From Nitrospina sp. (GTDB lineage: Bacteria > Nitrospinota > Nitrospinia > Nitrospinales > JACRGP01): 64,000 nucleotides of DNA. Of the stretch, positions 45,883 to 62,608 are shown piece after piece (the first letter of the stretch is position 1; each line of letters opens with the position of its first letter). The stretch covers positions 1 to 64,000 of the forward strand of contig JACAVV010000026.1 in assembly GCA_024648695.1 (NCBI GenBank), written 5' to 3'. The notes beneath the pieces were generated by a model that saw nothing but the letters and a program-made list of their open reading frames with translations, was not told where the DNA came from and did not search any database. Position numbers and translations under genes: made by a program.

Positions 45883-47832
45883 ATGGATCCCGTCATTAGC
45901 AAACATTCTCTCCTGCCCACAAACCTTGGCCCCGGAGATGCCTTTATCGTCATTGATGTCCAAAACGACTTTTTGCCCGGCGGTTCCCTGAGCATAGATA
46001 AAGGTTATGAAGTCGTTGCCCCCCTCAATCGCTATTTGCGATTGTTCCAAAAGAAACAGATCCCACTTTTTTTCAGCCGTGACTGGCATCCCGTCGATCA
46101 TTGTTCCTTCGAGAAATTTGGAGGGCGCTGGCCGGCACATTGTGTGGCCGAATCCGTTGGCGCCCAATTTTGTCCCGCTTTAGATGTTCCCGAATCAGCA
46201 ATCATCATTTCGAAAGCCACAGAAGTTTCAGAAGATGCCTATTCCTGTTTTCAATCCACAGGCTTGCACGAAACCCTTCAAAGGCAAAATATCAAGCGCT
46301 TGTTTGTTGGCGGACTGGCCACCGATTACTGCGTGCTGGAATCGGTAAAGGATGCGGTCCGTTTGAGCTATACGGTGGTAGTGCTGGAAGACGCTATCCG
46401 GGCGGTGGATAATGAAGCAGGTGACGGTCATCAGGCGTTGGAGGAAATGGAATCTTTGGGATGCCAGACCCTCACCCTGGATCGCTGGTTGCCTTACCCG
46501 CAAACGGCCTCTGCCTTGTTGGTCGATCTGTACCAGATCAACATGATGAAATCGTTTTGGGACCGGAGGATGAATCAAACCGCAATGTTCGAGTTTTACG
46601 TTCGCCGCCTTCCGAAGGAAAGAGGATTTTTACTGGCCGCCGGACTGGAACAAGTGTTGGAGTATCTGGAAACTTTAAATTTTTCCGATCAGGACCTCGA
46701 CTGGCTGAAAGACCAGTTGTTGTTGCCTCAGGATTTTCTCGACTATTTGAAATCGTTCCGCTTCACAGGCCGGGTGGAAGCGCTTCCGGAGGGCACCGTG
46801 TTTTTTCAGGAAGAGCCCGTGTTACGCATCACCGCCCCTCTGCTGGAAGCCCAGTTTGTCGAGACACGCATCATCAATTTACTTCAGTATCAGACCATGA
46901 TCGCCTCCAAAGCAGGACGCATCGTGTTGAGCGCTCCCGGAAAATCGCTGGTCGATTTCGGGTTACGCCGCGCCCATGGTGCCGAAGCCGGACTCCTTTC
47001 CGCACGCGCCAGTTACCTGGCCGGGTTTTCAGGAACGGCTACGGTGCAGGCGGGAGCCTTGTTCGACATTCCCCTTTACGGCACCATGGCGCATTCCTTT
47101 GTGCAAGTGCATGACAGGGAATCGGATGCCTTCGAACATTTTGTAAGATCGCATCCGCAAAACACGGTTTTATTACTGGATACCTATCATACCGAACAGG
47201 CGGCCGAGAAAGTGGTGACCCTCGCATCCCGCCTAAAAAAGGAGGGAATCACAATTCAAGCGGTCCGGATCGATAGCGGTGACCTGGGAGCGCATTCGAA
47301 AAAAGTGCGATCCATTCTGGACGCGGGAGATTGCCCGGAGATAAAAATCCTGGCCAGCAGTAATCTGGATGAACACAGCATTCGCCAATTAGTTCAAGAG
47401 GGAGCGCCTATCGATGGGTTTGGAATCGGGACCCGGCTGGTCACTTCCCAGGACGTGCCGTGCCTCGAATGCGCATACAAACTGCAAGAGTATGATGGCG
47501 TCCCAAAACGCAAACTTGCAGAAGGAAAAAAAACCTGGCCCGGACGCAAACAGGTTTTCAGGAATTACGACGATCGTGGCAGGATGTGCGGAGATATCCT
47601 GAGCCTGGAGACCGAGCCCCAGCAAGGCACCCCATTATTGAAGGAATTTTTGAACAAGGGCCGACGTCTACAACCGCCCACGTCTTTGGAAGCATCCCGG
47701 TCAATTGCGTCCCAACAACTAAATACCTTGCCCAAGGCATTAAAACAGTTGGAAACCCATAGCCCCTATCCAGTAGAAATCAGCCTCGCCCTGGAAGAAT
47801 TCACTCGATCCCTGCCGCCACCGCGGGATTAA
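45883..47832 (+). CDS. pncA/pncB: Nicotinamidase / nicotinate phosphoribosyltransferase fusion
   Basis: A 649 aa bifunctional protein that should convert nicotinamide to nicotinate and then to nicotinate mononucleotide for NAD salvage. Residues 1-205 are a nicotinamidase with Asp25 (VIDVQNDF), Lys111 (ISKATE) and Cys150 (LATDYC) as the catalytic triad and Asp67, His69 and His86 (SRDWHP, RWPAHC) as metal ligands. From about 210 the nicotinate phosphoribosyltransferase domain has LLVDLYQINMM, FEFYVRRLPKERGFLLAAGLE, VDFGLRRAHG and LYGTMAHSFVQ. All key residues of both halves are intact, and the frame is continuous with no linker stop, so this is a true fusion. The length equals the sum of the two single enzymes. 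Confidence 0.92.
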   Translation: MDPVISKHSLLPTNLGPGDAFIVIDVQNDFLPGGSLSIDKGYEVVAPLNRYLRLFQKKQIPLFFSRDWHPVDHCSFEKFGGRWPAHCVAESVGAQFCPALDVPESAIIISKATEVSEDAYSCFQSTGLHETLQRQNIKRLFVGGLATDYCVLESVKDAVRLSYTVVVLEDAIRAVDNEAGDGHQALEEMESLGCQTLTLDRWLPYPQTASALLVDLYQINMMKSFWDRRMNQTAMFEFYVRRLPKERGFLLAAGLEQVLEYLETLNFSDQDLDWLKDQLLLPQDFLDYLKSFRFTGRVEALPEGTVFFQEEPVLRITAPLLEAQFVETRIINLLQYQTMIASKAGRIVLSAPGKSLVDFGLRRAHGAEAGLLSARASYLAGFSGTATVQAGALFDIPLYGTMAHSFVQVHDRESDAFEHFVRSHPQNTVLLLDTYHTEQAAEKVVTLASRLKKEGITIQAVRIDSGDLGAHSKKVRSILDAGDCPEIKILASSNLDEHSIRQLVQEGAPIDGFGIGTRLVTSQDVPCLECAYKLQEYDGVPKRKLAEGKKTWPGRKQVFRNYDDRGRMCGDILSLETEPQQGTPLLKEFLNKGRRLQPPTSLEASRSIASQQLNTLPKALKQLETHSPYPVEISLALEEFTRSLPPPRD

Positions 47833-50803: not shown

Positions 50804-52363
50804 ATGAAGGAAAAGCGAAAAGTTATTTTGATAAACCCGAATTTGGTTTTATTAAAAAGCGATGTGTTTACTACCGGCGTGGTTTATATGCCTTTTGGTT
50901 TGGCCTATTTGGCCGCAAATGTCAGGGCGGAGGGTTATGGTTGCTCGGTAATTGATGCCTTTGGTGAAAAACCCAATCAAATCTGGGTTGAAGATGATTT
51001 GGTTTATAGAGGTTTGACTTCTACTGAAGTGATTGATTATTTTCCTGATGAGGAGTTGCCCCTGGCAATTATTATTTATGCCTGCAATTTAACCTGGCAT
51101 CAGTCTACTTTATCACTCATTAAAGAAATAAAATCCCGTTATCCTTCCGTCCCACTTGGTGTCATTGAAAATACACAAGCGGTTACGGCCTATTCTTTGG
51201 AAAATATCCAAGGTGAATTTTATGAAGCCGGGGCCAATTTTGTCATTATGGGTGAACCGGAAGAACGTTGTTTAAAGGTATTGGAAAACTTTTCGACCGG
51301 TGCATCCTATGAAAAACTACTGGAACACGATGGGATAGGTTATTTTAGTGAAGGAAAAAGTTATTACACAAAGGTAAAGGAAAAGATTGTAGATTTAGAT
51401 TCCCTTCCATTCCCTGCCTGGGATCTGTTTCCTTTGAAAAACTATTGGGATTTGAAGTATTCTCATGGACCGCTCTCAAGTAAGAAGTATTTACCTATTT
51501 TAACTTCGCGTGGATGCCCCTACCCTTGCCGGTTTTGTGTAATTCCAGAAACCAACGATCTCGAATGGCGGCATAGATCGGCCAAAAATATTGTAGATGA
51601 ATTAGAGCATTGGAGGAATACTCTTGGGGTTACGGAATTTCATATTGAAGACGTCAACCCAACCGTGAATGACAAGCAAACCCGGCGCATTTGCAAGGAA
51701 ATCATTGACCGGAAAGTAAACATCCACTGGAAAGTCAGTTCCGGAACAAAGGTAGAAACCATAAAAAATGAAGAGACGATCCAACTTATGGCGCAAGCTG
51801 GATGCAAATATATTTCAATTTCTCCAGAAAGCGGTTCTCAAAGAGTCATGAAACTTCTTAAAAAGCCATTCGATTTGGAGCATGCCGTAAAAATGATTGC
51901 GGCTATGAATCGATTTGGAATCAAATCTCAGGCCTGTTTCGTATTAGGATTTCCGGGTGAGGAAGACCCGGACAGGGAACTCACACGAAAGATGGTTTAT
52001 GATCTTGTTCGTGCTGGAGTCAGTGAAATTGCCTTATTCGTAGTCACCCCGGTTCCAGGGTCGGATATCTATGAAAACTTTGAGGGATACGACAATTATT
52101 CCCAGTTGAACTTTTCTCCCACCTGGCGACAGGACTATGAACATTTGAATAAATTTCGGGTTAAGTTGTATCGCGAATTTTTGTTTTGGAAGGTTTGTTC
52201 CCGACCTCTGGAAATTTTCAAACAAGTGCTAAACTTTGTATTCAGACGATTCGAAACTAAAATGGAAATGGTTCCTTTTCGGGCTTTTCATATGATGATA
52301 AAAATAAAAGTTTTCGAATTTCAAAGGAAATTTTCAAACTCTACTTTTCAAACCAAATCGTAA
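50804..52363 (+). CDS. B12-binding radical SAM protein
   Basis: A 519 aa iron-sulfur enzyme. Residues 1-165 form a cobalamin-binding-like Rossmann domain (FGLAYLAANVRAEGYGCSVIDAFGE) without the strict DxHxxG motif. The radical SAM core starts at TSRGCPYPCRFCVIPE (CxxxCxxC, about 237-252), with GCKYISISPESGSQRVM and GFPGEE further on. Class B-type radical SAM methylases and related enzymes of this layout modify unactivated carbons. Its place in the glycan operon suggests methylation or rearrangement of a sugar or lipid carrier, which is inference. It follows the GT-C gene by 90 bases. Confidence 0.85.
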   Translation: MKEKRKVILINPNLVLLKSDVFTTGVVYMPFGLAYLAANVRAEGYGCSVIDAFGEKPNQIWVEDDLVYRGLTSTEVIDYFPDEELPLAIIIYACNLTWHQSTLSLIKEIKSRYPSVPLGVIENTQAVTAYSLENIQGEFYEAGANFVIMGEPEERCLKVLENFSTGASYEKLLEHDGIGYFSEGKSYYTKVKEKIVDLDSLPFPAWDLFPLKNYWDLKYSHGPLSSKKYLPILTSRGCPYPCRFCVIPETNDLEWRHRSAKNIVDELEHWRNTLGVTEFHIEDVNPTVNDKQTRRICKEIIDRKVNIHWKVSSGTKVETIKNEETIQLMAQAGCKYISISPESGSQRVMKLLKKPFDLEHAVKMIAAMNRFGIKSQACFVLGFPGEEDPDRELTRKMVYDLVRAGVSEIALFVVTPVPGSDIYENFEGYDNYSQLNFSPTWRQDYEHLNKFRVKLYREFLFWKVCSRPLEIFKQVLNFVFRRFETKMEMVPFRAFHMMIKIKVFEFQRKFSNSTFQTKS

Positions 52364-52448: not shown

Positions 52449-53384
52449 ATGAATCCAACAGAATTCACCGAAATTGCATTATGTCCCATTTGCGAACATT
52501 CCGATTACGTTCCGTTGTGGGCATCGAATTATCCGGAAAACATTTCTTTTGAGGAATTTAAGGAAGTTTTCAAATCTTCTAGTGACGCCGAATTGTTCGA
52601 TCAACTGGTTAATTGCAAGGAATGCGGTTTGGCTTATTTAAACCCGCGGATTCGATCAGATATTATTCTAAATGGTTATGCTGATGCCGAAGACCTTCGT
52701 TTCGTATCTCAAAATGATTTTAGGATTAGAACATTTTATAAGAAATTTCGAAAGTGGCTAGGTGAATATAAAATTCCATTGAACAAAGAAGTTGCCGTGC
52801 TTGATGTGGGGTGTGCCGCAGGGGCCTTTCCCAAAGCGGCGCACGATCTCGGCCTTTCTGTTATTGGAGTCGAACCCAGCCGGTTTTTAAGTGAAATCGC
52901 CCGCAATGAATATGGTTTGGATATTCGCCCCGGTCTGTTGCAAGATCAAAATTTTTCAAATAATTCATTTAACATTATTTCTCTTTGGGATGTAATAGAA
53001 CATCTAATCGACCCATCCGAAGTGCTGGGGGAGATAAAGCGTATTCTTGATGATGACGGATTCCTTTTGGTGAATTATCCTGAGTATGACTCTTGGCCTC
53101 GAAAACTTTTGGGAAAAAAATGGCCGTTTTTTCTGAATGTTCATTTGTTTTACTTCACTCCTGAAACCATAAAAAAGTTAATGGCAAAAAACGGGTTTGA
53201 AGTTTTAAAAGTTGAACCCTATTTCCAAACTCTTGAATTGGGATACATTCTGGAGAGGGCAGGCAAGGTACTTCCTTTCTTTAAATTCGTTGCAAAATTG
53301 GTCAATCTGTGTGGAATAGGAAAAATTCCATTCACTTATTATATTGGCCAAACCCTGGTAACGGCAAAAAAACAAAAATCATGA
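52449..53384 (+). CDS. SAM-dependent methyltransferase with N-terminal zinc ribbon
   Basis: A 311 aa cytoplasmic enzyme. Two CxxC pairs, LCPICEHSD (residues 12-15) and NCKECGLAYLNPR (about 56-59), form a small zinc-binding domain, and then comes a class I methyltransferase fold with VLDVGCAAGAFPKAA (about 116-130), VIGVEPS and LWDVIEHLIDPSEVLGEI. This layout is common in deoxysugar C-methyltransferases and polysaccharide modification enzymes of glycan clusters. Its stop overlaps the HAD gene start (ATGA), so the two are translationally coupled. Confidence 0.9.
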   Translation: MNPTEFTEIALCPICEHSDYVPLWASNYPENISFEEFKEVFKSSSDAELFDQLVNCKECGLAYLNPRIRSDIILNGYADAEDLRFVSQNDFRIRTFYKKFRKWLGEYKIPLNKEVAVLDVGCAAGAFPKAAHDLGLSVIGVEPSRFLSEIARNEYGLDIRPGLLQDQNFSNNSFNIISLWDVIEHLIDPSEVLGEIKRILDDDGFLLVNYPEYDSWPRKLLGKKWPFFLNVHLFYFTPETIKKLMAKNGFEVLKVEPYFQTLELGYILERAGKVLPFFKFVAKLVNLCGIGKIPFTYYIGQTLVTAKKQKS

Positions 53385-54070
53385 ACCAGGATTTCGCGTT
53401 TATTTTTGATATGGACGGTGTTCTGGTTTTGAGCAGTAAAATACACGGCCAGGCCTTTCATAAAGCTCTTGAAACAGAAGAAGTAAAATTGGACTCCTAC
53501 AGTTTCATTGCTGGAATGCGCACCGATACTGCCTTCAAACTTTTGTATCAAAAATCCCAAGTCGAGCTTTCCGAAGATAAACTAACCAAGTTGGTGGATC
53601 TTAAAAGGCGAACCGCTCAAAAATTGCTCAAAGAAAACTTTCCCTTAGCCCCCGGTGTTCCTGAAGTATTATTCAACCTCCAAGCCAGAAAAATTAAAAT
53701 GGGATTGGCAAGTTCTTCCTCTTCATTTAACGTTAATATGTTTCTTAAAGAAAGCGGTGCAGAATCCGTTTTTTCGGTTGTTATGAGTGGGGAGGATGTT
53801 TTAAAAGCAAAACCCGACCCTGAAATTTATATTAGGTCCGCCCAACAACTTGGTTATCCTATCGAAAAATGCGTGGTGGTTGAAGACTCAAGGAGTGGAA
53901 TTCAAGCCGCCCAATCCGCTGGGGCCAAGATTGTCGCTGTTAACTGGGCTGAGGAGACTCAAAACCCTCTGGAAATGGGAGCCCACTTATTGATAAAACG
54001 AATAGACGACTTAGTGGATATCCGGTTATCCAGTCATGGACAATTGTTTTTAGCAGAATCATCCGAGTGA
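53381..54070 (+). CDS. HAD superfamily phosphatase/phosphomutase
   Basis: A 229 aa cytoplasmic HAD enzyme of the beta-phosphoglucomutase-like subgroup. It has the nucleophile motif FDMDGVLVLSS (Asp10, Asp12), a helical cap domain, motif II-type LASSSSSFN, the lysine in KPDPEIYIRSAQQLG and acidic motif IV VVEDSRSGIQAA. The start is the ATG overlapping the previous stop by four bases; the frame upstream of it is a shadow. In this operon it probably removes or moves a phosphate on a sugar that the fused nucleotidyltransferase next door then activates. Confidence 0.9.
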   Translation: MNQDFAFIFDMDGVLVLSSKIHGQAFHKALETEEVKLDSYSFIAGMRTDTAFKLLYQKSQVELSEDKLTKLVDLKRRTAQKLLKENFPLAPGVPEVLFNLQARKIKMGLASSSSSFNVNMFLKESGAESVFSVVMSGEDVLKAKPDPEIYIRSAQQLGYPIEKCVVVEDSRSGIQAAQSAGAKIVAVNWAEETQNPLEMGAHLLIKRIDDLVDIRLSSHGQLFLAESSE

Positions 54071-54073
54071 ACA

Positions 54074-56851
54074 ATGGGGACGATTAACCCTAAAAAATGG
54101 ACCTGTATTATACCTGTTGCGGGGAAGGGTTCCCGCCTGGGTTATGACCGGCCTAAAACGCTTTATCCCATTAATGGCCGCTCAATGCTTTCCCGCTTGA
54201 TTTCGTTTTTTCGAAACCATTGTTCAACCTTTGTGATAGTGGTTTCACCGGAAGGTGAAAGTGACGTGGTTCAGGAATTAAATTCTCTTTCTGACAAAAT
54301 CAACTATTCCATAGCAGTCCAGCCAAAACCCACAGGAATGGCGGATGCTATTTTATGTGCAAAGCAATATTGCAATACCGAGCAACTAGTTTGTGTTTGG
54401 GGGGATCAAATATGTTTGCTGGAAAGCACGATCCAAAAAACGTTGGAGTTTCATCAATCGAATTCTGAAAATGTTCTAACCTTGCCTACAGTTTGGAAAA
54501 AAAATCCCTATATTCATATTCAACGTGACGAGACGGGCCGAGTAATCAAGGTTCTTCAAGCCAGAGAGGGAGAAATTGATGTTGATATGGGCGAAAACGA
54601 TTGCGGACTGTTTTCCTTCCAGACAAAAGCACTTTTTTCGATTTTGGAAAAATTTCGAACCCGCAATGAAGTCCGGGGAGGAAAAACAGGGGAACAAAAC
54701 TTATTACAATTTTTTCCGGAATTTGAAAACCTTGGGCGGGTCAATACACTTTCAATCGCTACGGAGGAAGAGACCTTGGGCGTGAACACTGTTGAGGAAG
54801 CTAAACTGGCAGAGTCTATATTGGTGGATCGTGAAAATAATGCATTCCCCACAAAGTTACGTGTGGTTATGTTTTCGGGAGGACGGGGAACTTCCACCCT
54901 GGCACCCCTGCTAACGAATCACCCTCAAATCCAACTAACCATGTTGATTAACGGCTATGATGATGGTTTATCAACCGGTCGTTTGAGAGAATTCATACCG
55001 GGTTTCCTGGGACCCTCCGATTTCAGAAAAAACCTGGCTCGTCTCATTCCCTCAGATAATCCTAGCAACCGGGCCTTAAAATTCATAATAGAATACCGTT
55101 TGCCGGATTCACTAGAATATGCAGATGCGATTACCTTATTAGATAATTTATTGGAGAATGAATCCTCCCTGCTATCAGAAGAGTTTTGGGAACATTTGAA
55201 TTCCCTGACAATTTTCCATGCAAAATATTTTCAACGAAAAATCAAACGATTCCTGGAGTATTGCAAAGACCAGGAAAAAAAAGACATCTATTTTTCCTTT
55301 CAAGATTGTTCCTTGGGTAACATTCTCTTTGCTGGAATTTTTCTGGAAATGGACCGGGATTTTAACAAGAGCCTTGCGAGTTTTGTTGAAGCAGTCAAAC
55401 CAAAGGCAAAAATTTTAAATCTTACGCAAGGTGAGCCTCTGGTATTAGTCGGGTTGAAATCCGATGGTTCTGTAATGAAAAAAGAGGCCGATATTGTAGC
55501 TCCCCAAAATAAATTTAAAATGAAGGATATTTTCTTATTAGAGAAATATCTTTCTAATGATGAGTTAAAAGACCTGGAGAAACTTGATTTAGAAGAAAAG
55601 CATCAAACGTTGCTAAAACGAGAAGTGTTGCCTCAAATTTCAGAAGATACCAGAAATGAAATTGAAAATGCAGACCTGATTATTTATGGCCCCGGCACAC
55701 AACATTCTTCTTTATTTCCCAGCTACCTTACTGTCGGTCTATATGAGGCAATAAAAAAGAATGTCCACGCGGAAAAAATATTTATTTCAAACATTGTAAG
55801 AGATCATGAAATTCAGGATGAAACAACCAACACCTTGGTTGATAAATTCATTTACTACATGAACCGAAAAAGAACTTCAAAAATAACTTCCGATGGAATG
55901 GTGAATCAGTTTTTCTTTCAGCAAACCGGTGAAAACCCCAAGGGCAAATCAAATAGCCCGGATTATCTTGATTTGGATATCGGGAATTTTAAAGTTGGGA
56001 ATGATAAACAAGTGATAATGGACTGGGAAGATGAAGGCGGAACCCATCATGGAAGCAGGGTTGTTGATGAACTGATATCAATTGTCAACGAAAAGGTGAA
56101 GCACAAAATTAAAAATGTGCACTATATGGTATCTATCATTGTCCCTGTTTTGAACGAAGAACATACTTTAGAAAAGGTTTTATCCGATCTCAATCTGATC
56201 AATTTCCAGCCCCATGGATTGTCTAAAGAAATCATTGTTGTTGATGGAGGGTCAAACGATAACTCCGTAGAAATTGCCAAATCCAAAAATTATGTTCGTT
56301 TTTACCAACTACCGAATGACGTCCATGGCCGGGGGGCGGCCTTTCGACTAGGAGTCGAAAAGGCCAAAGGGGATATTGTTGCTCTTTTCCCTTCAGATGA
56401 TGAGTATGAAGCCAAAGACTTGCTTGGCTTGGTCGATACCAAAAACCAGGGTGAGTTCGAGGTGATTTTTGGCAGTCGCTCTATTAGATGCCGGGATATA
56501 ACAGGGCGAATTAACCAGATTTACGCAGGAAAAATAGTGCCTTCCCTGATTTCAAAATTTGGGGGAATGTTTTTTTCTATTTTATATTTGATCTTATTCA
56601 ACCGATTTATTACGGACCCTTTTACAGGGGTAAAAATTTTTAACAGGCGGCTTTTTAATTCACTTGGACTGAAAGCAAACGGCGTTGAACTGGAAGCGGA
56701 AATTTTAGCCAGGTTAGCAAAAGAAAGAGCTTTTATTCTCGAATTACCAATTGATTATCGACCAAGACTAAAGTCTGAAGGAAAGAAAATCACGGTTTTG
56801 GAAGGACTCTATACTTTGCTCTATCTTATAAAAATGAAGTTTAGCCAATAA
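54074..56851 (+). CDS. Fusion: sugar nucleotidyltransferase - YvcK/CofD-like - GT2
   Basis: A 925 aa three-domain protein. Residues 1-245 are a sugar-phosphate nucleotidyltransferase with GKGSRLGYDRPKTLYPI (17-33) and VCVWGDQICLLES. Residues about 262-640 resemble the YvcK/CofD family: MFSGGRGTSTLAPLL in the place of GGGTGLSxLL, NGYDDGLSTGRLRE in the place of ADDGGSSGRLR, GPSDFRKNLARLI, and YGPGTQHSSLFPSYL near 537. Residues about 683-925 are a GT2 glycosyltransferase with IIVPVLNEEHTL, VVDGGSNDNS and PSDDEYEAKD. One frame runs through with no stop, so it is not an assembly slip between genes. It could activate a sugar, then handle and transfer a phospho-sugar. I know of no described protein with this order, but cannot search. 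Confidence 0.85.
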   Translation: MGTINPKKWTCIIPVAGKGSRLGYDRPKTLYPINGRSMLSRLISFFRNHCSTFVIVVSPEGESDVVQELNSLSDKINYSIAVQPKPTGMADAILCAKQYCNTEQLVCVWGDQICLLESTIQKTLEFHQSNSENVLTLPTVWKKNPYIHIQRDETGRVIKVLQAREGEIDVDMGENDCGLFSFQTKALFSILEKFRTRNEVRGGKTGEQNLLQFFPEFENLGRVNTLSIATEEETLGVNTVEEAKLAESILVDRENNAFPTKLRVVMFSGGRGTSTLAPLLTNHPQIQLTMLINGYDDGLSTGRLREFIPGFLGPSDFRKNLARLIPSDNPSNRALKFIIEYRLPDSLEYADAITLLDNLLENESSLLSEEFWEHLNSLTIFHAKYFQRKIKRFLEYCKDQEKKDIYFSFQDCSLGNILFAGIFLEMDRDFNKSLASFVEAVKPKAKILNLTQGEPLVLVGLKSDGSVMKKEADIVAPQNKFKMKDIFLLEKYLSNDELKDLEKLDLEEKHQTLLKREVLPQISEDTRNEIENADLIIYGPGTQHSSLFPSYLTVGLYEAIKKNVHAEKIFISNIVRDHEIQDETTNTLVDKFIYYMNRKRTSKITSDGMVNQFFFQQTGENPKGKSNSPDYLDLDIGNFKVGNDKQVIMDWEDEGGTHHGSRVVDELISIVNEKVKHKIKNVHYMVSIIVPVLNEEHTLEKVLSDLNLINFQPHGLSKEIIVVDGGSNDNSVEIAKSKNYVRFYQLPNDVHGRGAAFRLGVEKAKGDIVALFPSDDEYEAKDLLGLVDTKNQGEFEVIFGSRSIRCRDITGRINQIYAGKIVPSLISKFGGMFFSILYLILFNRFITDPFTGVKIFNRRLFNSLGLKANGVELEAEILARLAKERAFILELPIDYRPRLKSEGKKITVLEGLYTLLYLIKMKFSQ

Positions 56852-56862
56852 GAGGATTTTCA

Positions 56863-57591
56863 GTGAAAACAGTTTCTATAATAATCCCGGCCTATAATGA
56901 GGAAGCTTCTATCGGTCTATTGATGGATAAAATACGAACCGTTGATACGGAATCCCTTGGATTTCAAAAAGAAATAATAATTGTTGATGATGGTTCCACC
57001 GATTCCACTGCAGAAATTGTGAAAAACTTGCTGGATGAAAATATACAATTCCTCCAGCAAGAGAATCAGGGAAAAGGAAAAGCCGTTCAGAACGGTATCG
57101 CTAAGGCGACCGGGGAGTTTGTTTTGGTTCAAGATGCCGACCTTGAGTATGAGCCCAAGGATTATATTCCATTACTAAAAAATATTACGGGTTCAAATAG
57201 CGTCGTTTATGGCAGTCGAACCATGGGCCAGTATTATAAGTATAATAGAAAATTCCCTTTTCCTGGGCGCCATAATACCCAGGCATTTGGACCCTGGATT
57301 GCGGGCGTGGTACTAACTTTTTGGGTTTTCCTGTTATATGGTAGATGGATAACAGATACTCTTACAGGATATAAGGTTTATCCAAGAGATTTAATTTGCA
57401 AATTGAATATTGTAACTTGCGGATTTGAAACGGATCACGAGATCACATCCAAACTTTTGAAAAAGAAAATAGGGATCAAAGAAGTTCCCATTGAGTACTA
57501 TCCCAGGACCATTGAAGAAGGGAAAAAAATCAGATTTAGCGATGGAATCAAAGCCATATTAACCTTTTTGAAATTCCGCTGGTTTTCCTGA
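56863..57591 (+). CDS. GT2 glycosyltransferase (dolichol-phosphate mannosyltransferase-like)
   Basis: A 242 aa cytoplasmic-face GT2 enzyme with SIIIPAYNEEASIG, VDDGSTDST and VQDADLEYEP, the sugar-nucleotide binding core, a hydrophobic segment (about 143-163) and TLTGYKVYPR. The start codon is GTG with AGAGGA six bases upstream. It follows the three-domain fusion by 11 bases and resembles that protein's C-terminal domain, so the operon has two GT2 activities. It probably loads a polyprenyl phosphate with a sugar. Confidence 0.88.
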   Translation: MKTVSIIIPAYNEEASIGLLMDKIRTVDTESLGFQKEIIIVDDGSTDSTAEIVKNLLDENIQFLQQENQGKGKAVQNGIAKATGEFVLVQDADLEYEPKDYIPLLKNITGSNSVVYGSRTMGQYYKYNRKFPFPGRHNTQAFGPWIAGVVLTFWVFLLYGRWITDTLTGYKVYPRDLICKLNIVTCGFETDHEITSKLLKKKIGIKEVPIEYYPRTIEEGKKIRFSDGIKAILTFLKFRWFS

Positions 57592-60952: not shown

Positions 60953-62608
60953 ATGCGAACAAAGACTTTTATTTCCTACGCCCAAAATTTTGAAGACGTC
61001 ATTTTATGGCGGGCTTTAAAGAAAATAAAAAAAGGTTTCTATATTGATGTTGGAGCTAACAATCCCAACGTGGAAAATGTAACCAAAGCATTTTATGAAA
61101 ACGGATGGAGCGGGATTAATGTGGAACCCATTTCCCAATGGTATAAAATGTTGGAAAAAGAACGGCCCCGTGACATTAACCTTAACACCGCAGTTGGAAA
61201 TGAAAAAGGCGAAGTAATTCTTTATGAAATCCCAGGCACAGGTCTATCAACCTTCAGCAAGGAATACGCGGAATCTTATAAGGCCAAAGAAGACCTGAAA
61301 GTTGTCAATAGGAATGTCCCTGTTACTACATTATCTGATATTTGTGATCGGTATCATTCTGCACCCATTCATTTTTTGAATATTGATGTAGAAGGTATGG
61401 AAAGCCAGGTTTTGCAAGGGATGGATTTCACCAAATACAGACCCTGGGTTATTTTATGTGAGGCTACCATTCCCAACTCACAAAAAGCAAACTATAAAGG
61501 TTGGGAAACCATATTATTGAATAGTGATTACAAGTTCGTTTATTTTGATGGTCTCAACCGTTATTATATTGCCAAAGAACATAAAAAACTAAGTTCTTCC
61601 TTTAAGACTCCTCCAAATATTTTTGATGGGTTTTTGTTGAGTGGTTATAGTCAGTCGCTTGAGAAAGGGATACGCCTGAAAAATGAAATTCAAGAGTTGA
61701 AAGCAAAAGGCCTTGAACGAGAGACCAGTTTAACCCAGAACTTAAAAACTCAAGAAAATCTGATAGAGTCATTAAAGCTTAAACTTGAAGAGAGTGATGC
61801 CAAAATTGCTGAATTAAATCAATCTTCGCATCATTGGTATCTTGAAACTGGGAAAGAAAAAGAACATTCACAAGCCTTGCAAGCAGAAAATGAACGTTGT
61901 GAGGAACAACTGAAGGAACAAAAAGAATTTAACAAGAAGTTGAGCCTAGAGCTTGAGAGTAGCCAGGCGTTGTCATTGGAGTTTCATCAAGCATTACGTC
62001 AATTATCAAAAGAAAAAAGACACCTACAAGAGGAAGTGGATCTAGACAAACAAAAAATTAAAAGCTTAGAGCAATTAAATCAAGACATAAGAATCAGTTT
62101 GGCTGGATATGACGAATTGAAGCAGAAACATAACGAGTTGAATAATCAATGTCACCATTGGTTTGAAGCTCATAATCAAGCAAATCAAAGTTTGTTGGAA
62201 ATGCGCCAAAGCTTTTTTTGGCGGGCCACAATACCCTTACGAACATTGAGCGGATTTGTTAAACGTTCCCTTTCCTGGTTGAAACACAAACCCAAGGCAA
62301 TGATAAAAAATGTTGTTTTTATCATGGTTTCATATCTTTTTAGATTTCCACTATTTAAAGGAAAGCTAATTAATTTTTTTTCAAATAACCCGGAATTGAA
62401 AAACCGCTTTGAAAAATGGGTGCTTCAAAAACCCAGGTTAACAGCTTTTTTTTCTGAAGAAGGGCTAGTTAATCCCAAGGCATTCCAGCCAGCTTCGTCA
62501 ATCCAGTCGGTCCAATCCGAAAGAAAACTAGAAACCACTGAGCCGCTAAATCCCACCGCAAAAAAGATTTATACCAGCTTGATGAACCTTGAGAAAGATA
62601 CCATTTAA
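60953..62608 (+). CDS. FkbM-family methyltransferase with long coiled coil
   Basis: A 551 aa protein. Residues 1-210 are an FkbM-type O-methyltransferase: FISYAQNFEDVILWRAL, KGFYIDVGANNP (SAM motif I), NVEPISQWYKML, and FLNIDVEGMESQVLQGMDF. Residues about 235-425 are a heptad-rich coiled coil (ELKAKGLERETSL onward), then two hydrophobic or basic helices (RATIPLRTLSGFVKRS, MIKNVVFIMVSYLFRFPLF) that may associate with the membrane. FkbM enzymes methylate sugars or hydroxyls on glycans and lipids. The coiled coil probably organises the enzyme on a partner. Its stop shares a base with the start of the next gene. Confidence 0.85.
   Translation: MRTKTFISYAQNFEDVILWRALKKIKKGFYIDVGANNPNVENVTKAFYENGWSGINVEPISQWYKMLEKERPRDINLNTAVGNEKGEVILYEIPGTGLSTFSKEYAESYKAKEDLKVVNRNVPVTTLSDICDRYHSAPIHFLNIDVEGMESQVLQGMDFTKYRPWVILCEATIPNSQKANYKGWETILLNSDYKFVYFDGLNRYYIAKEHKKLSSSFKTPPNIFDGFLLSGYSQSLEKGIRLKNEIQELKAKGLERETSLTQNLKTQENLIESLKLKLEESDAKIAELNQSSHHWYLETGKEKEHSQALQAENERCEEQLKEQKEFNKKLSLELESSQALSLEFHQALRQLSKEKRHLQEEVDLDKQKIKSLEQLNQDIRISLAGYDELKQKHNELNNQCHHWFEAHNQANQSLLEMRQSFFWRATIPLRTLSGFVKRSLSWLKHKPKAMIKNVVFIMVSYLFRFPLFKGKLINFFSNNPELKNRFEKWVLQKPRLTAFFSEEGLVNPKAFQPASSIQSVQSERKLETTEPLNPTAKKIYTSLMNLEKDTI

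Follow-up and report, generated by a model that had tools for sequence, protein, structure and literature searches.

The locus and its three-domain protein

Positions refer to the window, the whole stretch of 64,000 nucleotides of Nitrospina sp. DNA that was analysed. A single uninterrupted open reading frame at 54074-56851 encodes a protein of 925 aa, in which an NTP-transferase, a YvcK/CofD-like and a GT2 domain follow one another. The protein, its parts and the neighbouring genes are as follows:

50804..52363, + strand: radical SAM protein of the B12-binding type, 47-52% identical to genes of the Pseudomonadota cassette described below
52449..53384, + strand: SAM-dependent methyltransferase, 45-51% identical to cassette genes
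53381..54070, + strand: HAD-IA hydrolase/mutase of the beta-phosphoglucomutase group (HAD_2, E 5.7e-34), probable ATG start at 53381
54074..56851, + strand: the 925-aa protein
54074..54841, + strand: residues 1-256, MobA/GlmU-like sugar-phosphate nucleotidyltransferase domain (Pfam, family alignment)
54857..56110, + strand: residues 262-679, YvcK/CofD-fold domain, third PF01933 branch (Pfam, profile, model, Foldseek)
54959..55033, + strand: metal-site and family-signature motifs, from DDGLSTG (beginning at D296) to LGPSDFRKN (D316, K319), by conservation and motif match
55688..55726, + strand: motif GPGTQHSSLFPSY, residues 539-551, with G541, T542, S546, P549 and Y551 invariant
56123..56842, + strand: residues 684-923, GT2 domain resembling dolichyl-phosphate-mannose synthase (Pfam; best PDB match 5mlz)
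56863..57591, + strand: second GT2 with canonical DAD, polyprenyl-phosphate glycosyltransferase-like (GT2, E 7.9e-29), 52-56% identical to Pseudomonadota cassette genes

The preliminary description, made from the letters of the sequence, had placed three domains in one frame, and each of them matched Pfam above the curated cut-off: NTP_transf_3 at residues 11-139 (E 2.5e-15), CofD PF01933 at residues 264-599 (E 1.1e-23; 84.3 bits against a cut-off of 30) and Glycos_transf_2 at residues 687-815 (E 1e-22). The full-length AlphaFold2 model (pLDDT 88, pTM 0.62) puts the domain edges at approximately 1-256, 262-679 and 684-923, with a disordered part at 619-652. The HAD and GT2 genes named as neighbours were recovered upstream and downstream, respectively. 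The HAD protein scored 112.9 bits with the beta-phosphoglucomutase model TIGR01990, under its cut-off of 189.4, and across 39 sequences the DxD motif as well as His21, Lys74, Lys143, Glu167 and Asp168 proved invariant.

The N-terminal domain (PF12804, 57.5 bits against 27; PF00483, 38.7 against 21.2) belongs to a distinct NTP-transferase subfamily marked in the family alignment by the motifs AGxGSR, PK, GMGDAI, WGD, PY and REGD, with G88, W109 and D111 invariant and R21, K28 and N238 nearly so. Against the GlmU equivalog it reached 78 bits, under the cut-off of 450. When the subfamily profile was run on eight genomes, the best match in each was the module member (125-301 bits), the next best scoring 42-111.

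Farther along the contig lies a surface-polysaccharide region with Wzm-/Wzt-like ABC transporter, GMD-like and GT4-like genes, as read from their translations, which bears out the glycan setting proposed earlier. The same region holds an ORF (60953-62608) in which a long coiled-coil-looking part comes after an FkbM-type methyltransferase domain. Elsewhere in the window, a 649-aa ORF at 45883-47832, read by eye, combines nicotinamidase-like (isochorismatase-type) and nicotinate phosphoribosyltransferase-like parts and shares 57-60% identity with genes of three relatives.

A third branch of the CofD/YvcK superfamily

The middle domain was modelled with AlphaFold2 from 47 family members (mean pLDDT 91, pTM 0.91). 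A Foldseek search of the PDB returned 19 matches below 1e-3, all of them YvcK or CofD/FbiA structures, headed by YvcK 2o2z (E 7.8e-18) and followed by the CofD/FbiA entries 3c3d and 6uw1 (E ~2e-7). The YvcK/CofD fold assigned in the preliminary description therefore holds, but the domain is neither of the two enzymes in its name. The superfamily has two characterised branches, and the profile HMM of the family separates its members (380-451 bits) from YvcK (55-61 bits) and FbiA (11-12 bits); three actinobacterial genomes with the family (G077-G079) also carry two more PF01933 proteins, a YvcK and an FbiA. Judged by sequence, the CofD-like domain is thus a third branch of the superfamily.

Its signature is strict. 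Among 67 members, D296, D316, R318 and K319 are invariant (67/67), N293 and Y295 are found in 66 each, and G298, S300, R305, L312, G313, P314, S315, R342, N416, E471, G541, T542, P549, Y551, N573 and D577 are likewise fully or almost fully conserved; several residues of this set are not found in YvcK. The metal ligands of FbiA are D45 and D57 (PMC7253369), and D296 and D316 match them by motif, not by superposition.

The closeness of the fold to YvcK raises the alternative that the middle domain acts as YvcK/GlmR does, sensing an NDP-sugar and regulating the NTP domain or serving as an accessory nucleotidyltransferase. The nearest solved structures are indeed YvcK, and a synthesis of UDP-GlcNAc from UTP and GlcNAc-1-P has been reported for GlmR (PMC10128056, PMC13046274), the first of whose catalytic aspartates is kept as D296 in 67/67 members. 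The catalytic asparagine of GlmR (N198), placed by motif in PNLL, is nevertheless Ser550 in the window, while N293, Y295, K319, Y551 and D577 are specific to the family and not YvcK-like. Moreover, the family coexists with a canonical YvcK in the three actinobacterial genomes, another uridyltransferase would be redundant with the NTP domain, and a regulator is not expected in the minimal operon of a phage. We consider a YvcK-like role improbable.

PF01933 occurs once in the genome of the window, in the 925-aa gene, and the CofD-like domain was not found in the 76 other genomes of the phylum among the 77 searched; the gene was therefore probably acquired horizontally. The family was present in one of 147 genomes from the order of a Pelagibacteraceae member and in 36 of 201 Streptosporangiales genomes; for the latter order, a link of the family to madurose was considered.

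A recurring module in bacteria and phages

Single-sequence scans of genome and viral collections gave no match, but a search with an alignment built from two seeds, one a protein of an Acaryochloris plasmid and the other of a huge phage, retrieved 12 viral and 57 bacterial loci, which together with the seed loci make 71. An NTP-transferase gene of one subfamily adjoins the CofD-like gene in 66 of them, four of the five exceptions being cut contigs, and 63 of 71 have a HAD domain, either fused or nearby; no module-type HAD was found near the CofD-like gene of L055, L074, L075 and L023. The distance matrices of the CofD-like and NTP proteins were correlated (Spearman 0.79 for 44 dereplicated loci; none of 2000 permutations as high). 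Control YvcK and FbiA loci, all under 4 kb, held no NTP or HAD match.

The arrangement of the genes varies, brackets denoting fusions. Actinobacteria have GT2-CofD-HAD-NTP; Gammaproteobacteria, Cytophagaceae and Melainabacteria have [CofD-GT2-like]-HAD-NTP; a Propionibacterium has [CofD-HAD]-[NTP-GT4]; SAR86 has [GT2-CofD]-NTP; and phages have [CofD-HAD]-NTP, the Firmicutes MAGs carrying the same genes in either order. The CofD-HAD fusions of phages, Firmicutes MAGs and a Propionibacterium use two unrelated HAD classes. A PDB search with the C-terminal HAD of a single phage protein found no match, but the alignment search related it to phosphomannomutase (E 9.5e-15), and the Firmicutes HAD resembles alpha-phosphoglucomutase (E 2.2e-9). 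Although they are of different classes, the module HADs resemble sugar phosphomutases, the stand-alone HAD-IA type falling in the beta-phosphoglucomutase group. Beside the CofD-GT2 gene of a Pelagibacteraceae locus (L055:11943-12443) lies an opposite-strand HAD protein, the start of which resembles GmhB by eye.

The large phages (L024, LR756500.1, and L025-L036) carry genes for a T4 beta-glucosyltransferase-like protein, the CofD-HAD fusion and the NTP-transferase. The first of these is near the module in 11 of 13 phage records, which include near-duplicates and represent about ten distinct phages, and in seven the gap is at most 48 bp. Because of this pairing, an NDP-sugar is the plausible product of the module, and the gene set is apparently a DNA-sugar pathway that has so far gone unreported. 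No cultured phage carrying the module was found in our searches. The huge-phage record L024 also contains (50-2772) a type II topoisomerase-like gene, seemingly split by an intein that carries an endonuclease-like ORF (by eye).

Origin of the fusion in a conserved cassette

Closer relatives were drawn from a sample of 399 genomes of Pseudomonadota, the phylum of an Arenicellaceae member. Five loci (L135, L136, L138, L140, L141) hold all of the radical SAM, methyltransferase, HAD, NTP, GT2 and CofD-GT2 genes, 37-56% identical to those of the window; L137 and L142 have the same cassette in part or reordered, and L055 and L064 carry related, shorter versions. Since these six functions occur there as separate genes, the window protein is, as gene comparison indicates, an NTP gene joined to a CofD-GT2 gene inside an otherwise conserved cassette. 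The fusion, on which the preliminary description had centred, is real in the window, but the same functions recur elsewhere as separate genes or in other fusions.

Given that the NTP-CofD-GT2 order in one chain was not found in any other genome searched, and that the fusion is seen in a single assembly, that of the window, we considered whether an error in assembly or sequencing had merged two neighbouring genes. The frame is, on the contrary, continuous, with a short linker and no frameshift, the three domains are all conserved and in frame, and the cassette context agrees with the relatives. The contig also belongs to the genome of the window, because three genomes from the same family or order have genes that share 57-60% identity with one lying 7 kb upstream of the fusion. 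Such an error is therefore very improbable.

Proposed route of sugar activation and its alternatives

Taken together, the module likely makes and hands on an activated sugar. Our favoured explanation, with a probability of about 0.42, is that the cassette is an assembly line that makes and transfers an unusual sugar destined for a surface glycan, with the CofD-like step first. What was observed are the domains with their fold, the assignment to a third branch, the conservation of the metal-site residues and the recurrent association of CofD-like, HAD and NTP-transferase genes; from these we infer in which order the steps follow, which reaction the CofD-like domain catalyses, and what serves as sugar and as acceptor. 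The two conserved aspartates of the CofD-like domain would hold a metal and a nucleotide, and the domain would phosphorylate a sugar phosphate at its anomeric position. The HAD enzyme would remove the other phosphate to leave a sugar-1-phosphate, from which the NTP-transferase domain would make the NDP-sugar. The GT2 domains similar to DPM synthase would then pass the sugar onward from the NDP-sugar, probably to polyprenyl phosphate, and the radical SAM protein and the methyltransferase may modify the sugar or the chain. The placement of the CofD-like domain as a phosphotransferase ahead of the NTP domain is itself tentative, slightly more doubtful than not.

The order CofD-like, HAD, NTP, glycosyltransferase is suggested by the CofD-HAD and NTP-GT4 fusions, the latter, in the same Propionibacterium, looking as if the NDP-sugar passed straight to the transferase. 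Several points stand against it. We know of no CofD-superfamily enzyme that phosphorylates a sugar: in the known chemistry of the superfamily, FbiA/CofD transfers a phospho-acid that an NDP donor supplies, and GlmR is a reported uridyltransferase. A HAD phosphomutase and an NTP-transferase could yield an NDP-sugar without any CofD-like step, and the position of the CofD-like domain between NTP and GT2 in the window also fits a step after activation. The four loci named above, near whose CofD-like gene no module-type HAD was found, count against the order too.

Such a later step is the substance of the second live reading, a transfer of the CofD type, in which the NTP domain would make the NDP-sugar and the CofD-like domain would transfer its sugar phosphate part to an acceptor, releasing NMP. 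Were the fused GT2-like domain to hold polyprenyl phosphate as this acceptor, the step would be a phosphoglycosyl-transferase reaction. The GT2 domains bear on the question directly. The fused GT2 of the window keeps the GSR motif and has PSD in place of DAD, whereas the separate GT2 keeps DAD; in the close clade of the window, CofD-fused GT2 domains have PSD or PAD instead of DAD, and outside it the donor half is degenerate, with GSR kept in most members. Thus, in the fused GT2 of Gammaproteobacteria, Melainabacteria and Cytophagaceae a degenerate donor half stands beside an acceptor half with GSR, the arginine of which binds the lipid phosphate in DPM synthase. Retention of GSR next to a degenerate donor half favours a GT2 that would hold an acceptor, and hence favours the phospho-transfer reading. 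There is also precedent in CofC/CofD, where a nucleotidyltransferase feeds CofD (PMC8764529) and CofD/FbiA uses LPPG or EPPG; in addition, the metal ligands of FbiA are matched by motif and the NTP and CofD-like domains are fused in the window. This reading, however, does not account for the phage versions, which lack a lipid-binding part and are paired with a DNA-glucosyltransferase-like gene, and leaves the CofD-HAD and NTP-GT4 fusions unexplained. We regard it as on balance unlikely, but as a serious contender.

In its broadest and distinctly improbable form, the third CofD branch would be a new class of phosphoglycosyl transferases, placing sugar phosphate from the NDP-sugar of its NTP partner onto GT2-held polyprenyl phosphate to start a glycan, the phages reusing the chemistry on another acceptor, perhaps modified DNA. 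If true, this class would have a soluble fold unlike the two known classes. The earlier proposal that the protein makes and moves an activated phospho-sugar accordingly survives as one of two live readings; the fusions of the relatives favour, without proving, the assembly line with the CofD-like step before activation.

Our literature searches gave no description of the module or of a protein with the NTP-transferase, CofD-like and GT2 order, in agreement with the earlier view that the architecture was undescribed. To our knowledge, a module built around a third CofD/YvcK branch has not been described so far. Present in several bacterial phyla and in large phages with fixed partners, this branch would add a new step to nucleotide-sugar or glycan assembly and, in phages, points to the DNA-sugar pathway outlined above. 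It lends itself to direct testing, given its known partners and the existence of small stand-alone versions, and the window protein, uniting three steps, would be a handy enzyme for in vitro tests of order and channelling.

Comparison with known systems

YvcK/GlmR (UPF0052, TIGR01826) shares with the CofD-like domain its fold and most sequence motifs, yet the TIGR01826 score of the middle domain (74.4 bits) is under the cut-off of 196. The CofD-like family has LGPSDxRKN where YvcK has PPGDxRMA and differs further by its specific Y551, K319 and D577 and by the linked NTP and HAD genes; of the GlmR catalytic residues D40, D41 and N198, it keeps the first aspartate, with S550 at the asparagine in the window by motif. 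CofD/FbiA, the 2-phospho-L-lactate or PEP transferase, shares the superfamily, the two metal-site aspartates and a partner nucleotidyltransferase (CofC), but the family differs in its cross-score of 11-12 bits, in having no F420 setting and in the sugar type of its NTP-transferase partner. The best NCBIfam model for the middle domain is the CofD-like protein of the GAK system (TIGR04357; 84.4 bits against a cut-off of 340), and an annotated GAK CofD and a CofD-GT2 member share only 24% identity over half of the latter.

The arabinosyl-hmC set of phage RB69 (ORF055c SIS, ORF053c-052c) is likewise a candidate NDP-sugar route for DNA glycosylation with an NTP-transferase (PMC6024577). There, the NTP-transferase is joined to a weakly kinase-like domain (E ~0.002, under cut-off), and no CofD-like domain is present; ORF053c-052c was rejected as a CofD relative. 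ORF052c (L094:1595-3281) weakly matches fructosamine kinase (E 0.002) and APH (E 0.018); if these matches hold, ORF053c-052c would be an NTP-transferase-kinase fusion. In gut Firmicutes MAGs (L087:13798-15934, L089:8735-10829), the RB69 SIS protein and ORF052c have homologues at a distance of a few kb from the CofD module. The idea that CofD displaced a kinase is weak, because two Firmicutes loci hold both sets.

Heptose-type pathways proceed through a kinase, a HAD phosphatase and a nucleotidyltransferase, the same three-step logic as in the route proposed for the module. Unlike them, the module has no known sugar kinase identified among its genes, and the CofD-like domain would fill that slot.
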